From the IMG/VR virus record IMGVR_UViG_3300009151_000330, positions 1-25,864 of that record: DNA of 25,864 nt, one strand, 5' to 3'. The position numbers were made by a program, and so were the translations under genes. Origin of the DNA: a virus. Each line of letters opens with the position of its first letter. The first letter of the stretch is position 1. This document shows positions 14,993-25,864 of this stretch, piece after piece. The notes below the pieces were generated by a model, which worked only from the letters and a program-made list of their open reading frames with translations, searched no databases and was not told where the DNA came from.

Positions 14993-17983
14993 ATGTCACT
15001 CATAGTCACAAATCGTTCTGATAATTTCGAAGCTTGGAGAGTAAACACCAATCAACTTGGTGCAAACGTAGGCGATTTAGCCACTCTTGCTTCAGGTATA
15101 TCTTCTAGTTCTTCGGTGGTCGGTGCAGCTAATACTATCATGGGATATATTGGCACCTCGGCATTTACTACTTCTGCGAGTGACGTAAAGACGGCAATTA
15201 ATCAGATTACCGATGGAGTATCTATATTTCATGGAAATAAGACATTTGCAAACAATCTTAGTGTACAAGGTATACTTGGTTCTACTGGAAATTTCTCAGT
15301 AGGTTCGAGCCAACTTACGGTTGATGCATCAACAGGCGATGTTCTTGTTGCGGGAACTTTAGGAGTGACTGGCGTAGGTACATTCACTGCAGGCATAACG
15401 GCAGATGGTTTAGCTATTGGCACGACGAGTAACACGATTGCAGTAAATGGATCTGGTAGTCTTTATTTGGCCGCTGGTACCGGTGGATCTATCAGTATGG
15501 GATCTCCAGTAGTAGTTCCTGCTTCAGGTACCACCACAACTCCAGTCATCTCATTAACGAACACTGCGTCGTATCCATCTACTCCAAATCGTTTTACTAT
15601 CGACGCAAATGGAAATGTAGCGATCGTTGGAAATCTATCAGTTTCAGGAACAACCACTCTTACAAGCACAAACTATACGCCTGCTTGGTCTTCTATTACA
15701 GGAAAATCATACTATGGTGTAATGAGTGATGGTACTAACACTGCTAGTCCAATAACAAACGATGTAACTGGAGATACATTTAAATTCCGTGGATCAAACG
15801 GAGTAACAACTACTATTGCAAACAACGATGGTACGTATGGAGATAATCTACTGATTAGTCTCTCAGGAGTACCAAATTCGGTACTTTCAAATAGCTCATT
15901 GACGGTTTCTGCAGGCACCGGCTTAAGCGGCGGTGGCGCAGTGTCTTTAGGTGGTACAGTAACTTTAAGTAACGCAGGCGTAACATCAAACGTTGCAGGA
16001 ACTGGTATCAGTGTTAGCGGTGCGACTGGTGCGGTAACAATTGCAAACACTGGAGTATTATCTTTAGGACACGGAAATGGTATCTCATTAAGCGGTTCAA
16101 CTGGAGCAGTGACAATCACAAATAGTGATCTAGGTTCATCACAGAATATCTTTAAGAATGTGGCAGTGTCTGGACAAACAACTCAGGTTGCAACAATCAA
16201 TAATGATACTATAACATTAGTCGCAGGGACCGTATCTGCGACACCTGGCATCAGTATCACCACTCCTTCGAGTGGTCCAAGCCAAGTCACAATCTCACAC
16301 GCCACGACCACTGCAATAGCTGGAACAAGCACAAACTCAGGCGGTAATGTAATTCAGAATTTGACCTTAGATGCTTATGGTCACGTAACGGCAATAGCTG
16401 CTGCAGCACCAACGACTTACATAGGTACTACTGGAGTTGCTCTTGGAAGAGCTTCAAACTCATTAGCGTTAAACGGTATACTCTCAGTAACACTGCCTGG
16501 CTCAACCTCAGGTTCAATACAACTCGTACCTACCGCTGTTGCAGGAACTGGCACCGTCATTACGATTCCAGCCACGACTGGAACTCTTGTGACAACTGGC
16601 GATACCAGCACTGTAAGCAGTGCAATGTTAGCTGGATCAATTGCTAACTCAAAACTATTAAATAGTTCTCTGACTCTTGGATCAACGAACGTGTCTTTAG
16701 GCGGTACTGCATCTTCATTGAGCGGTCTTACTTCTATCCAAGCCACAACATTCACTGGAAATCTTGTAGGAAATGCGTCATCTGCTTCTAATTGGGCGAG
16801 CTCAAGGACGGTTTCCTTTACTGGTGGAGATGCGACAGGTAGTTTCAGCATCGATGGATCAACTAATGTTGGATCGGTAGCTCTAACTTTACAGTCAGTA
16901 AATAGCAATATTGGTACGTACGGTTCAACCACGACTGTACCTGTCATTAATGTTGATGGTAAAGGAAGAATTTTAAGTGTTTCAAGCGCAACTATTAGTG
17001 GCGGCGGTGGCGGTGGTACACAAGGCGTACAAGGTATTCAAGGCATTCAAGGTACGCAAGGCACAGCAGGTGCAGGAACTCAAGGTACGCAAGGAGCTCA
17101 AGGTATCCAAGGTACAACTGGTTCAGGCACTCAAGGCGCTCAAGGAACAAGCGCGGCTGGTACTCAAGGTACTCAAGGTGCGATAGGTGCAGGCACTCAG
17201 GGTACTCAAGGTAGACAAGGCATCACTGGCTCTCAAGGTACAACTGGAACTGGTACTCAAGGTACTCAAGGAACCGCTGGCCCAAGCGCAAATCAATTAT
17301 TAAATACGACGAGTGCTCCTACCTTTGATACGGTGAATCTTACGAGTAGCGGTGGCGGTTCTTCAGTAAGTTTGACGAGTGGAGGCTTAGCTTGGCTACA
17401 ATCCGGTATCGTAGGACCTGCAGTAATTTACACGAATGGATATAATCAAGGTGGTAGTACTAATTATGGTCTTGGATTAACTGATTTATCTTATGGTCAA
17501 GGCGCAAAGACTTGGTTATACGGAAATGGAGACGCAAGTTTTGGCGGTGCTTTATCAAAGGCGTCTGGTTCATTTAAGATCAATCATCCATTACCAGCGC
17601 TGTCCAAGACTAATTATCTCTATCACTCATTTATTGAAGGTCCATACTGTGACTTGATCTATCGTGGAACTGCAGTTCTTTCTGCAGGAACGACATCGGT
17701 CAATATCGATTCACACTTTGGAATGACTAGTGGTACATTTGCGGCGCTTTGTAAAAACTGTCAAGTGTTTGTGACAAATCAGACCGATTGGTCAGGAGTA
17801 AGAGGTTCAGTATCTGGAAGTACTTTGACGATTAGCTGTCAAGACAGTAATGCAACTTCTACGGTTAATTGGATGGTCGTAGGTGAACGTAATGATCCTC
17901 ATATCATTGATACTGATTGGACAGATCATAACGGGCGTCCTATACTTGAGCCAAAGATACCGATCGATCCAAAGATCGCTTAA
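14993..17983 (+). CDS. Tail fibre protein with a collagen-like segment
   Basis: A 996-residue tail fibre. It opens with 'MSLIVTNRSDNFEAWRVNTN' then QLGANVGDLATL, a common attachment N-terminus of T4-like fibres. Residues about 60-670 are Gly/Ser/Thr-rich beta repeats with phrases such as 'GTGLSGGGAVSLGGTVTLSN', 'LDAYGHVTAI' and 'VSFTGGDATGSFSIDGSTNV', usual in fibre shafts. A GGGGGG run leads into about 30 Gly-X-Gln style triplets at residues about 675-765, such as GTQGVQGIQGIQGTQG, forming a collagen-like stem. The C-terminal module starts near residue 860 with 'SFKINHPLPALSKTNYLYHS' and 'FIEGPYCDLIYRG', a module shared by many phage fibres. It is likely host-binding or host-range determining. 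A sugar-modification cassette lies directly downstream. Confidence 0.9.
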   Translation: MSLIVTNRSDNFEAWRVNTNQLGANVGDLATLASGISSSSSVVGAANTIMGYIGTSAFTTSASDVKTAINQITDGVSIFHGNKTFANNLSVQGILGSTGNFSVGSSQLTVDASTGDVLVAGTLGVTGVGTFTAGITADGLAIGTTSNTIAVNGSGSLYLAAGTGGSISMGSPVVVPASGTTTTPVISLTNTASYPSTPNRFTIDANGNVAIVGNLSVSGTTTLTSTNYTPAWSSITGKSYYGVMSDGTNTASPITNDVTGDTFKFRGSNGVTTTIANNDGTYGDNLLISLSGVPNSVLSNSSLTVSAGTGLSGGGAVSLGGTVTLSNAGVTSNVAGTGISVSGATGAVTIANTGVLSLGHGNGISLSGSTGAVTITNSDLGSSQNIFKNVAVSGQTTQVATINNDTITLVAGTVSATPGISITTPSSGPSQVTISHATTTAIAGTSTNSGGNVIQNLTLDAYGHVTAIAAAAPTTYIGTTGVALGRASNSLALNGILSVTLPGSTSGSIQLVPTAVAGTGTVITIPATTGTLVTTGDTSTVSSAMLAGSIANSKLLNSSLTLGSTNVSLGGTASSLSGLTSIQATTFTGNLVGNASSASNWASSRTVSFTGGDATGSFSIDGSTNVGSVALTLQSVNSNIGTYGSTTTVPVINVDGKGRILSVSSATISGGGGGGTQGVQGIQGIQGTQGTAGAGTQGTQGAQGIQGTTGSGTQGAQGTSAAGTQGTQGAIGAGTQGTQGRQGITGSQGTTGTGTQGTQGTAGPSANQLLNTTSAPTFDTVNLTSSGGGSSVSLTSGGLAWLQSGIVGPAVIYTNGYNQGGSTNYGLGLTDLSYGQGAKTWLYGNGDASFGGALSKASGSFKINHPLPALSKTNYLYHSFIEGPYCDLIYRGTAVLSAGTTSVNIDSHFGMTSGTFAALCKNCQVFVTNQTDWSGVRGSVSGSTLTISCQDSNATSTVNWMVVGERNDPHIIDTDWTDHNGRPILEPKIPIDPKIA
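17019..17284 (+). repeat. Collagen-like Gly-X-Gln coding repeat in the tail fibre
   Basis: Degenerate 9-base repeats coding mostly for Gly-Thr-Gln, Gly-Ile-Gln, Gly-Val-Gln and Gly-Ala-Gln, with small interruptions such as GAG, GSG and AAG. Two stretches within it (17075-17097 and 17124-17145) are identical to stretches in the collagen-like gene at 25420-25442 and 25451-25472. Confidence 0.9.
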
Positions 17984-18078: not shown

Positions 18079-19071
18079 ATGAATAATTTCGTAAAAGCTG
18101 CAATTCAAGCAGGTGGTTCAATCAAGCCCCTGATTATTCCTTCGGAACTCACTGGCGGTACTGGTCTCATGAATCCTTCCGTTCTAAATGATAACGGAAA
18201 GATTCTTGTAAACATCCGTCATGTAAATTATACCTTCTATCATTCAGAGAATAAGGTATTCTTACATCCTTGGGGTCCATTGACGTACTTACACCCTGAG
18301 AATGACTTAAAGCTACGTACGACTAACTGGTACTGTGAGATGGACGACCAGTTAAACATCACTCGTTACAATAAGATCGATATGAGCTTTGGAGATACGT
18401 ATGAGCCAAAGTGGGAGTTTATTGGTTGTGAGGACGTTCGCTTAATGCGTTGGGAAGGAAAGCTTTATATCGCTGGAGTTCGCCGTGATACAACTACGAA
18501 TGGCCAAGGTCGTATGGAACTCTCCGAGATCGTAGTCACTCCTGATGCAGTCAAGGAAGTATCACGCTTTCGTATTCCTACACCAAAAGATCCAAACGCT
18601 TACTGTGAAAAGAATTGGATGCCTATTCTTGACATGCCTTATCACTTTATTAAGTGGTGTACTCCTACAGAAGTAGTTAGGGCAAATCTTGACACTAGAA
18701 CTTCTACGACAGTCGTGATGCAAGACACGGATCCTAAAGTGCGTAGAGATCTTCGTGGCGGTACACAGCTTATACCTATGGGCAATGGCTATCACATGGC
18801 GATTACTCATGAGGTTGACTTATTTAAGTCTGAAGTAGGTAGAAAAGATGCAGTATATCACCATCGCTTTATCATTTGGGACGATAAGTGGAATATAGTA
18901 AAGTCATCAAAGGATTTCTTCTTCATGCACGCGCATGTCGAGTTTGCTATCGGCATGTGTCATTATAATGAGTCGGACGTCTTAATTACTTTTGGCTTCC
19001 AAGATAATGCCGCATATATACTTCGTTGTCCTATCAAAGTCATAATGGATTTTATAAATGAAAATAATTGA
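18079..19071 (+). CDS. Beta-propeller protein resembling GH130-type glycoside phosphorylases/hydrolases
   Basis: A 330-residue protein with repeats suggestive of a five-bladed beta-propeller. The line 'MNPSVLNDNGKILVNIRHVN' (residues 31-50), 'EFIGCEDVRLMRWEGKLYIA' (113-132), 'CEKNWMPI' (176-183), 'LRGGTQLIPMGNGYHMAITH' (225-244) and 'FAIGMCHYNESDVLITFGFQ' (289-308) resemble the blade starts of the GH130/GH43/GH32 propeller superfamily, and the 'EDVR' at 118-121 is like the EDPR motif of GH130. GH130 enzymes act on mannosides, commonly by phosphorolysis. Which sugar is handled here is unknown, and it could be a non-catalytic sugar-binding propeller. Its last 14 bases overlap the next gene, so it is coupled to the GT17 fusion. 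Confidence 0.6.
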   Translation: MNNFVKAAIQAGGSIKPLIIPSELTGGTGLMNPSVLNDNGKILVNIRHVNYTFYHSENKVFLHPWGPLTYLHPENDLKLRTTNWYCEMDDQLNITRYNKIDMSFGDTYEPKWEFIGCEDVRLMRWEGKLYIAGVRRDTTTNGQGRMELSEIVVTPDAVKEVSRFRIPTPKDPNAYCEKNWMPILDMPYHFIKWCTPTEVVRANLDTRTSTTVVMQDTDPKVRRDLRGGTQLIPMGNGYHMAITHEVDLFKSEVGRKDAVYHHRFIIWDDKWNIVKSSKDFFFMHAHVEFAIGMCHYNESDVLITFGFQDNAAYILRCPIKVIMDFINENN

Positions 19072-21082
19072 TTGTTTTCCATATTATAACGAAAAAGAAC
19101 TCTTACAACTACGTTACAATTTATTAAAAGACGTAGTAGACGAGTTCATCATTTGTGAAGGTGACGTCACTCATACTGGCGATCCTAAGCCAATGACCTG
19201 CGTTGATACCTTGAAAGAACTTGGTATACCTTTAGATAAGATCAAGCTTATTAAAGTTAAATTACCAAGCGACAAAGGATTAAGCAATTGGAGGCGTGAG
19301 AACGCTCAACGCGATGCTGCACGCAGCTTCTTAAATGATAATAACACAGTCGCTATCATAAGTGACTGTGACGAGATCATGAATCCAGTCTCAGTGAAGT
19401 ATTATGCCGAGTCTGCTTTAAGATATCCAGATCGTATCATTCGTATACCAATGGCTTACTTGAATTGCCGCGCAGACCTTCAGGTGGTAGATAAGAGTGG
19501 TAACGCTCGTGATTGGAACGCACCATTCATGTGCTTAAGAAAGCATGTAGAAAAATATTCTTTAAGTCAGATCCGCGAATCATACACACGAGGCAAGAAT
19601 GACATTAGCTTTACTGATACTTATTTAATAGACAATGGTGTTATTGAGAAAGCTGGTTGGCACTTTAGTTGGATGGGTAATGCAGCGCGCATGCAAACAA
19701 AGATAAAGTCATTAGCAGATCATGGCGACTTCATCGCTGGTGCCGTCGGCGGTGGGTCTGATAAAACGAAGATCGTTGATTTCATGGATTCTTATAAGGC
19801 AAAGGATGGATCAACCGATCCGTTAGGTCGCGAGGATCACGTATTAAAGTATTATCCTACATCAAAGTTACCACAAAAAATCTTTGAATTACCTTTAGTG
19901 CAAGATTACCTCTTACCTGTCAAGATTAAGCATTTCTATGACCAACCGCAGTTTGGTGAGAACTGGTTCACATTCCCTGAGTTATACGCAGAGATGGTAC
20001 GCAAGTTCCCAGATGGCAGTAAGTTTGTAGAGATTGGTTCTTGGAAAGGTAGATCAGCGGCTTATATGGCCACTGAGATCATTAATAATGATAAACAGAT
20101 TGAGTTCATGTGTGTTGATACTTGGCAAGGCTCGATTGAACACCAAGAAGCAAATAAGGATGAACTAAAAGATCTTTACCACATCTTTATTAAGAACATG
20201 AGTCCTGTGGATGGTAAGTACAAACCACTCCGGTTGACTTCAGTACAAGCTGCACAACAATTTGCTGACAACACATTAGACTTTATCTTTATTGATGCCT
20301 CACACGAATACGAGGACGTAAAGAATGATATAAAGGCTTGGCTACCAAAACTAAAGAAAACTGGTGTAATAGCTGGGCACGATTGCTATCCTGATAATCC
20401 TGAGTTCGGCGGTGTATATAAGGCAGTCAAAGAACTCATTCCTAACTTTAAGATCTCTGAAAACTGTTGGATATACGAACCAATGAATCCTATTAAATCT
20501 GAAATTGAAAATCTACTCTATAAGTTTATAGATAATCCTAATGACGCCGAGTCAAACTTTGCACTCGCACTATATTACGATCGCTTGAATCAAACTGCTT
20601 CAGCGGTGTCATATTATATCCGTACTGCGGAACGCGCACCAGATCCATTACTTCAGTATGAAGCTTTAGTTAAAGCAGCACTTTGTTTCTTACGACAAGG
20701 TACGCGCGGCTTATCAGTTCGTGGATTGCTGCAAAGAGCGATCACTGTACTTCCAAAGCGCCCAGAGGCGTATTTCTTATTAGCTCGCTGGTGGGAGAGA
20801 GACAGCACCGTTGAGGGTTGGGTAAACTGCTATACGCTCGCTACGATTGGAGAAAATCATTGCGACTTTAATTTAGCGCCCTTACGAACCAATGTTGAGT
20901 ACCCTGGCAAATATGGCATGATCTTTGAAAAGGCAATCAGCGCTTGGTGGGTAGGTCTTTGTGAAGAATCTCGCGACTTATTAAAGATTTTATTAACTCA
21001 ATATAAATTAGACGCAACTCATAAGAATGCTGCCATAAACAACTTAAAGTTTATGAAGCAGAATGTAGATCAATATCTCTAA
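19058..21082 (+). CDS. Three-part fusion: GT17-like glycosyltransferase, class I methyltransferase, TPR-like tail
   Basis: A 674-residue protein. Residues about 1-290 match family GT17 (N-acetylglucosaminyltransferase III-like): 'MKIIDCFPYYNEKELLQLRY', 'DVVDEFIICEGDVTHTGDPK' and the acidic metal/nucleotide-sugar site 'IISDCDEIMNP' (about 100-110), with 'AGWHFSWMGN' later. Residues about 310-460 are a Rossmann methyltransferase: 'KFVEIGSWKGRSAAYMATEI' is the SAM-binding motif I, then 'FIFIDASHEYEDVKNDIKAW' and 'VIAGHDCY', as in the Methyltransf_24 family. Residues about 485-674 are helical TPR-like repeats ('AESNFALALYYDRLNQTASA') ending with 'YPGKYGMIFEKAISAWWVGL', a tail I associate with phage glycosyltransferases. 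It probably transfers a sugar and methylates it or an acceptor. The target is unknown; it overlaps the propeller gene by 14 bases. Confidence 0.8.
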   Translation: MKIIDCFPYYNEKELLQLRYNLLKDVVDEFIICEGDVTHTGDPKPMTCVDTLKELGIPLDKIKLIKVKLPSDKGLSNWRRENAQRDAARSFLNDNNTVAIISDCDEIMNPVSVKYYAESALRYPDRIIRIPMAYLNCRADLQVVDKSGNARDWNAPFMCLRKHVEKYSLSQIRESYTRGKNDISFTDTYLIDNGVIEKAGWHFSWMGNAARMQTKIKSLADHGDFIAGAVGGGSDKTKIVDFMDSYKAKDGSTDPLGREDHVLKYYPTSKLPQKIFELPLVQDYLLPVKIKHFYDQPQFGENWFTFPELYAEMVRKFPDGSKFVEIGSWKGRSAAYMATEIINNDKQIEFMCVDTWQGSIEHQEANKDELKDLYHIFIKNMSPVDGKYKPLRLTSVQAAQQFADNTLDFIFIDASHEYEDVKNDIKAWLPKLKKTGVIAGHDCYPDNPEFGGVYKAVKELIPNFKISENCWIYEPMNPIKSEIENLLYKFIDNPNDAESNFALALYYDRLNQTASAVSYYIRTAERAPDPLLQYEALVKAALCFLRQGTRGLSVRGLLQRAITVLPKRPEAYFLLARWWERDSTVEGWVNCYTLATIGENHCDFNLAPLRTNVEYPGKYGMIFEKAISAWWVGLCEESRDLLKILLTQYKLDATHKNAAINNLKFMKQNVDQYL

Positions 21083-21083
21083 T

Positions 21084-21097
21084 ATATACTAGTATAT
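21084..21097. repeat. 14-base perfect palindrome before the GT25-GT2 gene
   Basis: ATATACTAGTATAT reads the same on both strands and fills most of the 19-base gap between the GT17 fusion stop and the ATG at 21102. It could be a binding site, a weak hairpin in the leader, or a chance result of A/T-rich sequence. Confidence 0.4.
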
Positions 21098-21101
21098 TAT
21101 T

Positions 21102-22655
21102 ATGAATCCTTTGAAAGGTGTTCCTCCAATTTATTATCTCTCACTCGCGGGTGAGACCGAGCGTCAAAAGTGCATACAAGATCAATTTGACAAGTATTTT
21201 ATAAAGAATACGACTATGATTCTAGGCTTCGACGGTCGCAAGACTGATCTGAAGAATAATCCATTAGTTCGTGGTTCTTATTTTGATGCTTTATCCTCTG
21301 GAGATGTGGCGTGTTCGATGGGTCATATTCAGATGATTAAGACTTGGTTAGAAACATCTGATAGTGATACCGCATTATTCTTGGAAGATGATGTCAATCT
21401 CGATAACTGTGAGTATTGGAGTTTCTTATGGTCAGAGATGGTTGAGGCTTTGCCTAAAGGATGGAAGTGTATGCAGTTGGCATTAATCAAGCCGCACGAC
21501 ATTGAGGAAGTAAAGTTTCGTCCACGCATTACTAACAATTGGTCAGTGACTGCTTATCTCTTAACAAGAGATTACGCTAAGTTCTTACTAGATCATTATT
21601 ACGTAAACAATCAGTTTGTACTGAATGTGTTTGGAGATCCAAGGGCTTTGCCTATCGTGGAGAACTTGATTTATTTCCCAGCAGAACCTCACGTATACAC
21701 ATTCCCTATCTTTACTGAGAAGAATACTTTCTCAAGTACGTTTATTGCAGGTCAAAAAAAGGTAAAGGAATATAATGATATCTCTGAAAAGTCTGCAACG
21801 AAGTGGTGGCAGAACTATGGTAAGAAGACATCTCTTTCTCAATTTATGGATACTACACACGTCTTTGAACCAATACCGATGTTAGGCACCGCAGTGGTAA
21901 ATAACACTAAGTGGGTCAAGAGGCTCATTGAAAGTGTGGATCATCCAGTGAAAGAGTTCTTGATCATTAACAATAATGGTCGTGGCATAATCGATAAAGA
22001 ACTGGATGAGATTGCAGCGGTGCCTCATAAATTTATTGGAAAGATTCGTGTCCTTCACATGGCGTGTAATTTAGGAGTACCCGCGTCTTGGAACTTGATG
22101 ATCAAGTCGTATATCAAAGCTCCTTACTGGATCATCATGAATGATGACGTTGCGTTCACGCCTGGGCTCTTAGCCGAGATGCATTTAGCCACTCTTCGTG
22201 AACCCATGGTGGGTATGATTCACGCGCACGAGGGAGATCATGGCATCGGTAGTTGGGACTTATTTCTTATCCGAGATCACGTCATAATGAACTATGGTTT
22301 ATTTGATGAAAATCTATATCCTGCTTATAACGAGGATGCTGACTATTTCATGCGATTCCTAGTAAAACCTATTCGTAGGATCATGTCCTTACAAGGGAAT
22401 TACTTGCATGGAGATGGTAATAAACAAGATTACCATACTCATGGTAGGCAGACTGCAAAGAGTGATAGTAAACTGCACGATCAATTACATCAAGTAAATC
22501 TTACTAATTTTGAGTATATGACACAAAAATGGACTGAAGGATGGAGGCTTTGTGCACCTTCCCAGAGTCCATTTAGAGATAAAAACACTGAATTTCCTAT
22601 ATCTTATACTACTTTTGACTTAAAATTTATAAGATCAAAACATCTAGGTTTTTAA
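21102..22655 (+). CDS. Fused glycosyltransferases: GT25-like N-terminal half and GT2-like C-terminal half
   Basis: A 517-residue protein with two transferase domains. Residues about 8-240 resemble GT25 (bacterial LPS and animal collagen galactosyltransferases): 'PPIYYLSLAGETERQKCIQD', 'GDVACSMGHIQMIKTWLE' and the acidic site 'ALFLEDDVNLD' (residues 91-101), then 'SVTAYLLTRDYAKFLLDH'. Residues about 258-480 resemble a GT2 (GT-A fold) enzyme: 'VVNNTKWVKRLIESV', 'EFLIINNNGRG', 'LGVPASWNLMI' and the DxD-like 'WIIMNDDVAFTPGLLAEM' (about 343-360), followed by 'YPAYNEDADYFMRF' and 'GNYLHGDGNK'. Both sites look intact, so it may add two sugars in sequence. It follows the GT17 fusion by 19 bases. The acceptor is unknown; the neighbouring collagen-like fibres are candidates by analogy with the GT25 family. 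Confidence 0.82.
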   Translation: MNPLKGVPPIYYLSLAGETERQKCIQDQFDKYFIKNTTMILGFDGRKTDLKNNPLVRGSYFDALSSGDVACSMGHIQMIKTWLETSDSDTALFLEDDVNLDNCEYWSFLWSEMVEALPKGWKCMQLALIKPHDIEEVKFRPRITNNWSVTAYLLTRDYAKFLLDHYYVNNQFVLNVFGDPRALPIVENLIYFPAEPHVYTFPIFTEKNTFSSTFIAGQKKVKEYNDISEKSATKWWQNYGKKTSLSQFMDTTHVFEPIPMLGTAVVNNTKWVKRLIESVDHPVKEFLIINNNGRGIIDKELDEIAAVPHKFIGKIRVLHMACNLGVPASWNLMIKSYIKAPYWIIMNDDVAFTPGLLAEMHLATLREPMVGMIHAHEGDHGIGSWDLFLIRDHVIMNYGLFDENLYPAYNEDADYFMRFLVKPIRRIMSLQGNYLHGDGNKQDYHTHGRQTAKSDSKLHDQLHQVNLTNFEYMTQKWTEGWRLCAPSQSPFRDKNTEFPISYTTFDLKFIRSKHLGF

Positions 22656-22699: not shown

Positions 22700-23806
22700 A
22701 TGGCTATCTACGCTAACATATCTATTGATCAGGGTTCAGACTTCTCAGCTGTCATAGGAGTGCAAGGTGTAGACGGTTTAACCTTGGATTTAACAGGTTT
22801 CACCGCTCGTGGTCAAATAAGAAAGACGTATACTTCTAGAAATTCAATCGTTTTTACTACTTCTATACCAGATCCTACGAGTGGTAATATACAGATCTCA
22901 TTAACACACTCGCAAACAGCCACGATGAAGGCAGGTCGTTATCTTTACGATGTAGAAATCATAAGTATCGATAACTTAGTCACTCGTGTGGTGGAAGGAC
23001 AAGTTGATGTAGATCCACGTATTACATTACCTGACAACTCTCATGGAATGCAGGTATTTACGGCGAGTGGATCGTGGACGGTGCCTTCAAATGTAAATGC
23101 AGTAAATGTTTTAGTTGTAGGAGGAGGCGGAGGCGGTGGTAATTGGGCAGGTGGTGGAGGAGGCGGAGGCGGAGTTATTCGAAACTTTGATGTCGGTCAT
23201 CAAACCTTTGCGGTCATTCCTAATTCAAGTATACCAGTCATAGTAGGTTCAGGCGGTTCAGGCGCTTCTGCATACGGCGCAGTGGGTACGGCCGGTGGAA
23301 ATTCTTCGTTCGGCACTTTAGTCGCTCTAGGTGGTGGATTCGGTGGATCAGGGCCTGGATCCGCTCATGCAACTGCTGGCAATGGTGGTTGTGGTGGAGG
23401 AGCTTACTCAACAGGTAGTTCTGGCTTAGGCACAGACGCACAAGGCGAGGGAGGCGGACTCGGTTACAATTACGGTGGAGGAGCGGTTGGACCTGGTGGC
23501 GGTGGTGGCGGTGGTGCCGTAGGAGGAGGAGGCTCAGTCGATGGCAACGGCGCAGGCGGTGGAGGACTTGGTTATGAAAGTCAAATTTCAGGAGTGAACG
23601 TCATGTATGGATCTGGCGGAGGTGGCGGTGCAGGTCGTGGAGCAATCGCGGGTCAAGGTAATATTGGTGCAGGCAATGGCGGAAATCAATTCTCAGGCGG
23701 TTTAAATGCAATCATTGCAAACGTAGGAGCAGGCGGCGGTGGAGGAGGAGAAAGCTCAATCGACGGCGGCGATGGCTCTGCTGGCGTAGTCATAGTTGTT
23801 TGGTAA
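22700..23806 (+). CDS. Polyglycine-rich tail adhesin or fibre-tip protein
   Basis: A 368-residue protein in two parts. Residues 1-110 are a small beta domain, 'DQGSDFSAVIGVQGVDGLTL' then DLTGFTARGQIRK, 'LTHSQTATMKAGRYLYDVEI' and 'TRVVEGQVDVDPRIT', a module repeatedly seen in aquatic phage structural proteins. A joint with 'MQVFTASGSWTVPSNVNAVN' (117-136) then leads to a glycine-rich region up to the end, with runs of seven and eight glycines, and a closing 'AGVVIVVW'. This is the layout of the phage glycine-rich domain, which can pack as polyglycine-II helices in receptor-binding adhesins such as gp38 of some T-even phages. It probably contacts the host surface. It has its own late promoter box and is followed closely by a small fibre-associated gene. 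Confidence 0.8.
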   Translation: MAIYANISIDQGSDFSAVIGVQGVDGLTLDLTGFTARGQIRKTYTSRNSIVFTTSIPDPTSGNIQISLTHSQTATMKAGRYLYDVEIISIDNLVTRVVEGQVDVDPRITLPDNSHGMQVFTASGSWTVPSNVNAVNVLVVGGGGGGGNWAGGGGGGGGVIRNFDVGHQTFAVIPNSSIPVIVGSGGSGASAYGAVGTAGGNSSFGTLVALGGGFGGSGPGSAHATAGNGGCGGGAYSTGSSGLGTDAQGEGGGLGYNYGGGAVGPGGGGGGGAVGGGGSVDGNGAGGGGLGYESQISGVNVMYGSGGGGGAGRGAIAGQGNIGAGNGGNQFSGGLNAIIANVGAGGGGGGESSIDGGDGSAGVVIVVW

Positions 23807-24135: not shown

Positions 24136-25864
24136 ATGTCAACTAAAGGAACAAATATCCTTTTTAAGAAATCGTCTATACCTGGGAAAATTCCCGGTGG
24201 TGGGGACTTGTCGTATGGTGAATTAGCGCTCAATTATGCGGATGGCGTTTTATACTATAAGAACGCAAATGGTGCGGTAGGGATATTAAATTTACAAGGT
24301 GCGCAGGGCGTAAATGGCACCAATGGTATTCAAGGTGCCAAAGGAGCTCAAGGCGTACAAGGATCTAGCGGTTATCAAGGATCCGATGGGTTGCAAGGAA
24401 CTCAAGGCGCGAGTGGTTATCAAGGAATCAATGGAACTCAAGGTGCGCAAGGTGCCGCAGGTTATCAAGGAATAAATGGCGCGCAAGGTACTCAAGGTAC
24501 TTCTGGCTATCAAGGAGTTAATGGCGCCCAAGGTTCTCAAGGTATACAAGGCATTCAGGGTCTTCAAGGTATCCAAGGTAAAGATGGTCAGTCTATCTCA
24601 ATTAAAGGCAGTGTAACTAGTGCCACTGTAGAAAACTTTAGCGCTATTACTCCACCTCCAGTTTTAGGTGATGCTTGGATAGCTGATGATACAGGTCATC
24701 TTTGGGTTTATACTGTAACTGGACCAGTCGCTGGATTCTCCGATGTAGGTCAGATAGTAGGTAGTCAAGGTACTACTGGTTCGCAAGGTTCTCAAGGTAT
24801 TCAAGGTATCAATGGTACTTCTGGAACCCAAGGAGTACAAGGTGCACAGGGTATTCAAGGTACGAGTGGATATCAAGGCGCCGATGGCACTCAAGGTAGC
24901 CAAGGTATTCAGGGCAGACAAGGCACACAAGGTTTACAAGGAGAGCAGGGTGTTCAAGGAATACAAGGCGCTCAAGGTGCACAAGGCACTCAAGGCGAGC
25001 AAGGTATCCAAGGTGTTCAAGGAACTCAAGGAGTTCAAGGTGCCCAAGGTCAACAAGGGATTCAAGGTACTCAGGGTACACAAGGAAGACAAGGAATTCA
25101 AGGGTCACAAGGCACTCAAGGCGACGTCGGTCTTACTGGTAATGATGGTGTTCAAGGTACTGAAGGACAACAAGGTATTCAAGGAACTGCTGGTCTTCAA
25201 GGTTATCAAGGTGTCCAAGGTGTTCAAGGTACTGAAGGACCTGCAGTCATTATTTCTCCAACAGTTCCACTCTCACCAGTTGATGGAAATCTTTGGTGGG
25301 ATAATACGGTTGGTCAACTGCGTATATTTTATAACGACGGCAACTCGTCGCAATGGGTTGATGCCGTTATCGCTGGTGAAATGGGTATTCAGGGTTTTCA
25401 AGGCGTTCAAGGCTTTGGTGGAACTCAAGGTACGCAAGGAGCAACTGGCGCAGGCACTCAAGGCGCTCAAGGTATTCAAGGTGAACAAGGCGTTCAAGGT
25501 AATGATGGCGCGCAAGGCGTTCAAGGAGCACAAGGTACCGTCTTAAACTTTATTGGTACCTGGATACAAAGCTCCTATGTCGCTCAAACTGTTGCAGTAT
25601 CTCCTTTAAATAATAATACTTACATCAGTTTAGTAACAACTACTAATGTATATACTGATCCTGCAAATGATCCAAGCGAATGGGCATTATTTGCAGCAGC
25701 TGGCAGTCAAGGTCTTCAGGGTGTTCAAGGTTCTAGTGGTACTAGTGGTACTAGTGGTACACAAGGCGCGCAGGGAGCAAATGGTAATCAAGGTATACAA
25801 GGAACTCAAGGCGCGCAGGGTCTACAAGGCGAGCAAGGTGTACAAGGAATTCAAGGTACACAAG
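24136..25864 (+). CDS. Large collagen-like tail fibre protein (3' end beyond the window)
   Basis: An open frame of 576 codons from the ATG at 24136 to the window edge, with no stop. The N-terminus 'IPGGGDLSYGELALNYADGV' then LYYKN is the common phage-fibre start module. After it come four blocks of Gly-X-Gln triplets (residues about 54-152, 212-368, 417-469 and 524 onward), separated by small domains: one with 'GDAWIADDTGHLWVYTV' (about 155-210), one with 'PLSPVDGNLWWDNTVGQLRI' and NDGNSSQWVDA (about 369-415), and one with 'NFIGTWIQSSYVAQTVAVSP' and 'NDPSEWALFAAAG' (about 470-522), which looks like a carbohydrate-binding CBM5/12-type insert. Glutamine replaces the proline usual in animal collagen. 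It is probably a long fibre stem with inserted knobs; the receptor-binding end is not visible. Confidence 0.88.
   Translation, partial: MSTKGTNILFKKSSIPGKIPGGGDLSYGELALNYADGVLYYKNANGAVGILNLQGAQGVNGTNGIQGAKGAQGVQGSSGYQGSDGLQGTQGASGYQGINGTQGAQGAAGYQGINGAQGTQGTSGYQGVNGAQGSQGIQGIQGLQGIQGKDGQSISIKGSVTSATVENFSAITPPPVLGDAWIADDTGHLWVYTVTGPVAGFSDVGQIVGSQGTTGSQGSQGIQGINGTSGTQGVQGAQGIQGTSGYQGADGTQGSQGIQGRQGTQGLQGEQGVQGIQGAQGAQGTQGEQGIQGVQGTQGVQGAQGQQGIQGTQGTQGRQGIQGSQGTQGDVGLTGNDGVQGTEGQQGIQGTAGLQGYQGVQGVQGTEGPAVIISPTVPLSPVDGNLWWDNTVGQLRIFYNDGNSSQWVDAVIAGEMGIQGFQGVQGFGGTQGTQGATGAGTQGAQGIQGEQGVQGNDGAQGVQGAQGTVLNFIGTWIQSSYVAQTVAVSPLNNNTYISLVTTTNVYTDPANDPSEWALFAAAGSQGLQGVQGSSGTSGTSGTQGAQGANGNQGIQGTQGAQGLQGEQGVQGIQGTQ
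24292..25864 (+). repeat. Extended Gly-X-Gln collagen-like coding repeats
   Basis: Imperfect 9-base units of the type GGN-NNN-CAA run through four blocks, broken by the small domains near 24600-24768, 25240-25380 and 25543-25704. Common triplets are GTQ, GIQ, GVQ and GAQ, with recurring GYQGINGTQ- and GNDG-like variations. Synonymous codons vary between units. Confidence 0.9.
25732..25758 (+). repeat. Tandem 9-base repeat coding for Ser-Gly-Thr units
   Basis: Three nearly identical units (TCTAGTGGT, ACTAGTGGT, ACTAGTGGT) sit inside the fourth collagen-like block and encode SSGTSGTSG. They preserve frame, so slippage would change fibre length by three residues per unit rather than break the gene. 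Confidence 0.8.

Follow-up and report, generated by a model that had tools for sequence, protein, structure and literature searches.

The window, that is the whole stretch of DNA analysed here, is an entire 25,864-base contig of an IMG/VR virus. It carries a block of three closely spaced genes within an operon of the T4-like tail type, which according to PHROGs comprises baseplate hub, wedge subunits and fibres. The block and its neighbours are arranged as follows:

14993-17983, + strand, tail fibre with two short Gly-X-Y runs (about 12 triplets, Thr at X in 6)
18079-19071, + strand, gene 1, 330 aa, GH130-like propeller
19058-21082, + strand, gene 2, 674 aa, GT17 (aa ~1-290), Methyltransf_24 (aa ~315-460) and TPR, assigned with Pfam
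20498-21070, + strand, TPR module, gene 2 aa ~480-671, here at the C terminus
21102-22655, + strand, gene 3, 517 aa, fusion of GT25 (aa ~1-252, Pfam) and GT2 (aa ~258-517, Pfam), assigned with Pfam and PHROG
22700-23806, + strand, glycine-rich protein, Pfam Gly_rich_2 58 bits, PHROG 3304/1084
24136-25864, + strand, collagen-like tail fibre, Pfam Collagen 193 bits, extending past the contig end

All three open reading frames of the block were reproduced as first annotated, with genes 1 and 2 overlapping by 14 bases and genes 2 and 3 separated by a gap of 19 bases, and chance is excluded as the source of the block because hundreds of homologous loci exist. The region 5' of the block encodes T4-like baseplate hub and wedge families as well as a large protein that matches a PHROG strongly but is of unknown function. 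At 1465-2862 the homologue of the baseplate hub / tail lysozyme measures 465 aa, whereas the profile spans 868, and judging from this length it may be without the lysozyme part. Scans for promoters and terminators gave no excess over shuffled sequence. The initial annotation had placed collagen-like fibres on either side of the block, which holds for the downstream fibre, whereas the upstream one scores 17.4 bits against Pfam Collagen and thus stays below the 27.2-bit cut-off. The downstream fibre contains about 115 Gly-X-Y triplets in which the X position is occupied by Thr at a frequency of 0.23 and by Pro at 0.009; it includes GTQ repeats and is a candidate substrate of the cassette. The protein encoded at 22700-23806, previously termed a polyglycine adhesin, is indeed glycine-rich (Gly_rich_2 / tail-fibre-assembly protein), while its role as an adhesin had been surmised; its N-terminal domain resembles L-shaped tail-fibre assembly proteins, and it is a possible fibre component.

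Gene 1 scores 12.5 bits against Pfam GH130, below the gathering score of 26; no GH130 match at E≤1 was found in the record, and no NCBIfam model matches genes 1 and 3. A propeller profile compared with PDB sequences retrieved only weak GH130 matches (E 0.03 and 0.37) when built from a diverse alignment, and no GH130 match when built from a nearer one. The assignment was settled by fold comparison. The AlphaFold (AF2) model, calculated with 40 homologues as input (pLDDT 88.5, pTM 0.90), is a five-bladed β-propeller whose best structural matches are GH130 mannoside phosphorylases, with RaMP1 at the head (Z 24.2, rmsd 3.2, 279 aligned), and the top 21 structure entries are all GH130 or putative GH130-type glycosidases. 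These are followed by the Leishmania GT108 mannosyltransferases, which have a similar fold (Z 18.7) but are less close than GH130, and then by GH43 enzymes (≤18.6). The earlier description of a GH130-like propeller is borne out at the level of the fold; the model assigns gene 1 to the GH130-like fold family, and it is not filed as a proven GH130. Residues E118-D119 lie within a GLED(A/V)R motif and are invariant in the homologue alignment, the GLED-R residues being aligned to GLEDPR of 9fj8, a GH130 oligomannan phosphorylase. A number of basic residues (R47, R121, R135, R136, R145, K178, R226 and H244) are also invariant or nearly so and would suit the binding of phosphate or a nucleotide sugar. 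Gene 1 is predicted to encode a probable β-mannosyl (or other glycosyl) transferase/phosphorylase. As the propeller fold is common to GH130 and GH43 hydrolases, it could in principle belong to a glycosidase that is carried on the virion and degrades host glycans during adsorption, which is very unlikely for the window: the propeller is devoid of a fibre or trimerisation domain, it is always operonic with GT, methyltransferase or TPR genes, and it has the conserved basic residues just named, with the ligands that they would suit.

Gene 2 matches Pfam GT17 with 46.1 bits (cut-off 26) over part of the profile (74-191 of 348) and Methyltransf_24 with 81 bits, and its Pfam match to TPR is weak. In the AF2 model the GT17 and TPR parts are confident and the methyltransferase is poor. 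The TPR domain model has a pLDDT above 90 and reaches Z 14-16 to TPR proteins including OGT, a comparison that covers the TPR part, which dominated the fold search with gene 2; as modelled, the C-terminal domain is composed of tandem helical hairpins and has a TPR fold. Gene 3 matches Pfam GT25 with 37.9 bits (cut-off 24) and GT2 with 24.8 bits, and belongs to the PHROG category of glucosyltransferase / galactosyl transferase; a search of GT25-GT2 against PDB sequences returned no match at E≤0.1.

The three genes had been regarded as one cassette, and this natural unit is ruled out by the relatives, in which only the pair of propeller and TPR is constant. In a set of 86 viral loci, dereplicated at 95%, the TPR domain of about 190 residues is found 3' of the propeller on the same strand in 82, as the next gene in 55 and fused to the propeller in 3. 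Three of the four loci that lack the TPR partner are cut short, and the fourth encodes a protein of only 24% identity. Around the pair there are 54 arrangements in 85 loci, the permuted or fused partners being GT25, GT2, GT17, FkbM and other methyltransferases, radical-SAM/SPASM and DUF6445; the GT25 and GT2 halves of gene 3 shuffle independently, and single cassettes include sugar-nucleotide genes, for example for GDP-mannose dehydratase. The nearest relatives, with a propeller that is 73% identical, retain TPR and GT25-GT2 but have no GT17 domain, and BLAST does not match the N-terminal methyltransferase of their gene 2 to that of the window. The conserved unit is the propeller and TPR pair accompanied by interchangeable enzymes. 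The TPR domain alone occurs at no fewer than 594 loci, at least some of which are without the propeller, and these TPR-only cassettes are still located near Thr-rich collagen.

Gene 1 has at least 593 relatives in IMG/VR, as compared with 3 among 50,697 deposited phage records and 9 contigs among 84,980 cellular genomes. The cassette family is large, interchangeable, almost unstudied and nearly uncultured, and its carrier here is a virus of aquatic bacteria. The nine cellular matches (L036-L044), nearly all of them metagenome bins, come from unrelated phyla and are probably phage contigs binned with their hosts. In BFVD the gene 1 model also matches structures of Pithovirus, Solivirus, Satyrvirus and Indivirus proteins, several of which are annotated with fucosyltransferase, WcaK-like or LicD domains, hinting at a possible pool of propellers common to phages and giant viruses.

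The relatives give a mixed picture of whether such cassettes stay with collagen-like fibres or commonly lie at a distance from fibre genes, which would count against the initial annotation. Pfam Collagen is encoded in 23 of 24 cassette-bearing records. In 12 of the 13 long records, namely those with full collagen positions, the cassette lies within 10 kb of a collagen stretch, as compared to an expected 3.2, and none of 20,000 random-placement simulations reached this number. Likewise a collagen ORF is located within 10 kb in 32 of 49 dereplicated loci with an upstream flank of at least 7 kb (median distance 1.7 kb), and in the cultured Synechococcus phage DSL-LC02, where Thr occupies X at a frequency of 0.71, a collagen-like gene directly adjoins the cassette. 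The exceptions include a marine clade of three records, where the nearest collagen is 13-15 kb away from the cassette, and one divergent 124-kb record in which no collagen was found, so that a strict tie between gene 1 and collagen is ruled out for divergent members. Furthermore, the fetched flanks of 40 GT17-led loci contain no long collagen tract, and in 20 of these loci TPR and propeller are missing as well.

T4-like tail-fibre regions are hypervariable and collect unrelated cargo (PMC7029224), and proximity alone is therefore weak evidence. The main rival reading builds on this property and holds that the enzymes remodel a host surface polysaccharide such as O-antigen or capsule, for instance to block the adsorption of other phages, the fibre region being a hypervariable cargo site. 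In the literature, clusters of GTs from pelagimyophages and jumbo cyanophages are interpreted in this way (PMC7029224, PMC7824862). GT25, GT2 and WavE domains often take part in LPS synthesis, the domain turnover suits arms-race variation, and the occasional sugar-nucleotide genes would be in keeping with it. Modification of host glycans would, however, predict neither an invariant TPR module nor the near-universal presence of collagen-like proteins in cassette-bearing phages, nor the exchange of Pro for Thr in their collagen repeats that is described below, and it is considered unlikely, albeit a reading of some weight.

This exchange emerged from a control set that was assembled independently of the cassette. 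Because tblastn with the collagen fibre gave only 6 short phage matches, probably due to low-complexity filtering, contigs with QGxxQG repeats were selected by a DNA pattern and the 30 longest were typed for TPR. In this reverse direction, from collagen to cassette, only 9 of the 30 records were TPR-positive, 7 of them strongly. Thr occupies the X position at a frequency of 0.285 in TPR-positive records (8 usable) and 0.045 in TPR-negative ones (17 usable), p = 1.3e-4 for this comparison of 8 with 17 records in which lineage is only partly controlled, whereas Pro at X shows the opposite trend with 0.022 and 0.221, respectively. The Thr contrast persists upon GC matching (p = 4e-4) or when only strong TPR matches are counted (p = 4e-4) and is robust to a changed run-length threshold. 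Background Thr in other ORFs is 0.073 versus 0.087, and neither Thr nor Pro in this background differs in the direction seen in the repeats. Frequencies of Thr at X are 0.37 in 31 independent propeller and TPR loci and 0.22 in 13 TPR-only loci. Repeats of the Pro/Glu type with little Thr occur in G034 and G047, two records that match the T4-like baseplate strongly but are without a strong TPR; the weak TPR match of G034 (40 bits), which coexists with Pro/Glu collagen, is probably a generic TPR. Short contigs without a visible TPR are bimodal in composition, as expected if some cassettes have been cut off, and the repeats of P-SSM2 were left out as too short. Bacterial collagens without hydroxyproline are normally stabilised by Pro at X (PMC3368898; PMC8968730). 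In phage collagens without hydroxyproline, too, Pro at X usually takes this role, and glycosylation of Thr has been named as an alternative stabiliser of the triple helix (PMC3368898). The repeat composition of cassette-bearing phages looks as if glycosylated Thr had taken the place of Pro in this function.

A precedent exists in C. difficile, where SgtA O-GlcNAcylates Thr in the collagen repeats of BclA3 and its gene is located immediately upstream of bclA3 (PMC7157674). A GT gene beside a collagen-like gene can thus glycosylate Thr in the repeats of the latter, and GT25 enzymes are known to galactosylate collagen (PMC3244457). On balance, the block is probably one of a widespread group of phage cassettes predicted to glycosylate (and methylate) the phage's own collagen-like tail fibres in the infected cell. 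The original proposal that the enzymes act on a virion-fibre glycan is in this respect supported by collagen proximity, by the 23 of 24 records and by the Thr-rich and Pro-poor repeats, and is to be abandoned with regard to the three genes as a unit. Other virion proteins, for example capsid, tail tube or the Gly-rich protein, might be modified instead, by analogy with mycobacteriophages; virion glycosylation by phage-encoded GTs exists according to Freeman 2023, as cited in PMC12619734, and collagen-poor members of the cassette family are known. This is rather improbable, as the shift from Pro to Thr is a feature of the collagen repeats and is not shared by the other ORFs.

Under the preferred reading of fibre glycosylation, the TPR domain would bind and present the extended, not yet trimerised fibre chain, and a GT-A enzyme (GT25, GT2 or GT17) would place the first sugar on Thr at X of Gly-X-Y. 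The propeller and the other GTs would then extend the glycan, the propeller most likely with mannose as suggested by its fold, and the methyltransferase would cap it. GT17 enzymes act on β-linked mannose in animal N-glycans, and by analogy a β-mannosyl step carried out by the propeller would fit this substrate. The resulting sugars would both stabilise the triple helix in the absence of proline and hydroxyproline and give the fibre a variable coat. In its most specific form, which is put forward tentatively and falls somewhat short of an even chance, the hypothesis states that the family of TPR and GH130-like propeller O-glycosylates Thr at X of collagen-like fibres with the sugar replacing Pro as the stabiliser, while the swapped GT, methyltransferase, radical-SAM and Fe/2OG-type modules individualise the coat of each phage.

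The proposed system shares with SgtA/BclA3 (PMC7157674) a GT gene beside a collagen-like gene, a surface filament and the O-linked sugar on Gly-X-Y threonines, which is predicted here. Unlike the cassettes, SgtA/BclA3 consists of a single bacterial GT and a spore protein with Thr at Y (GPT), and is devoid of a propeller, a TPR module and a domain-shuffling family. The GT25 domain is shared with mimivirus and animal collagen glycosyltransferases (PMC9546862, PMC3244457), and in mimivirus, too, both GT25 and the collagen-like substrates are encoded by the virus; the animal and mimiviral sugars are, however, attached to hydroxylysine, whereas Lys is nearly absent from the phage collagen repeats. 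With the GH130 mannoside phosphorylases and the Leishmania GT108 mannosyltransferase/phosphorylases (PMC8950772) gene 1 has in common the five-bladed propeller and the catalytic ED(P)R, but at 10-15% identity and below the Pfam cut-off the phage propeller forms a phage-specific family coupled to TPR. Phage GTs have also been proposed to decorate virion proteins of mycobacteriophages (Freeman 2023, cited in PMC12619734); these systems have capsid and tail-tube targets and other gene content and are not combinatorial around TPR and propeller. The pelagimyophage and jumbo cyanophage clusters similarly combine GTs with radical SAM in islands of T4-like fibre regions, and the passages of PMC7029224 and PMC7824862 that were consulted, which interpret them as modifiers of host LPS or capsule, do not describe the TPR and propeller pair or the link to collagen. 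If correct, the hypothesis would provide a target for hundreds of unexplained GT and methyltransferase genes of aquatic phages, whose products are at present taken to modify the host surface, add a second way of stabilising collagen in the absence of proline and bring to light a combinatorial system for coating virions; two cultured cyanophages, DSL-LC02 and S-SCSM2R, would allow a direct test.

Phage GTs often target modified bases, and one divergent member of the family has DNA polymerase B and a Mom-like gene as neighbours, which raises the idea that phage DNA is hypermodified with sugars by the cassette. For the window this is highly improbable: here and in the nearest relatives the cassette is part of the late tail operon and distant from replication genes, and it is not adjoined by base-modifying enzymes. 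The divergent branch itself (L030:2994-10816, and L031) comprises a divergent propeller and a partial TPR, next to which a Mom-like protein and DNA polymerase B, split into separate genes, are encoded, and it may have another target.

Several further genes accompany the cassettes. DUF6445 is absent from the window and present in 38 of 85 cassettes (e.g. L002:15118-15711, L011:10398-10988 and L027:9979-10731). Its members have the invariant residues H-x-D ... H ... R by which Fe(II)/2OG oxygenases are usually recognised, so that many cassettes may include a hydroxylation step; comparison with solved structures yielded no relative of DUF6445 and only weak viral fibre matches. In 25 of 85 cassettes the TPR module has a radical SAM/SPASM domain fused to it or next to it, as at L010:4626-6065, L002:12968-15121 and L027:7683-9311. 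In the marine clade a gene for a PD-(D/E)XK (Cas4/RecB-like) nuclease is located 3' of the cassette (L022:5807-6826, L027:10728-11714).
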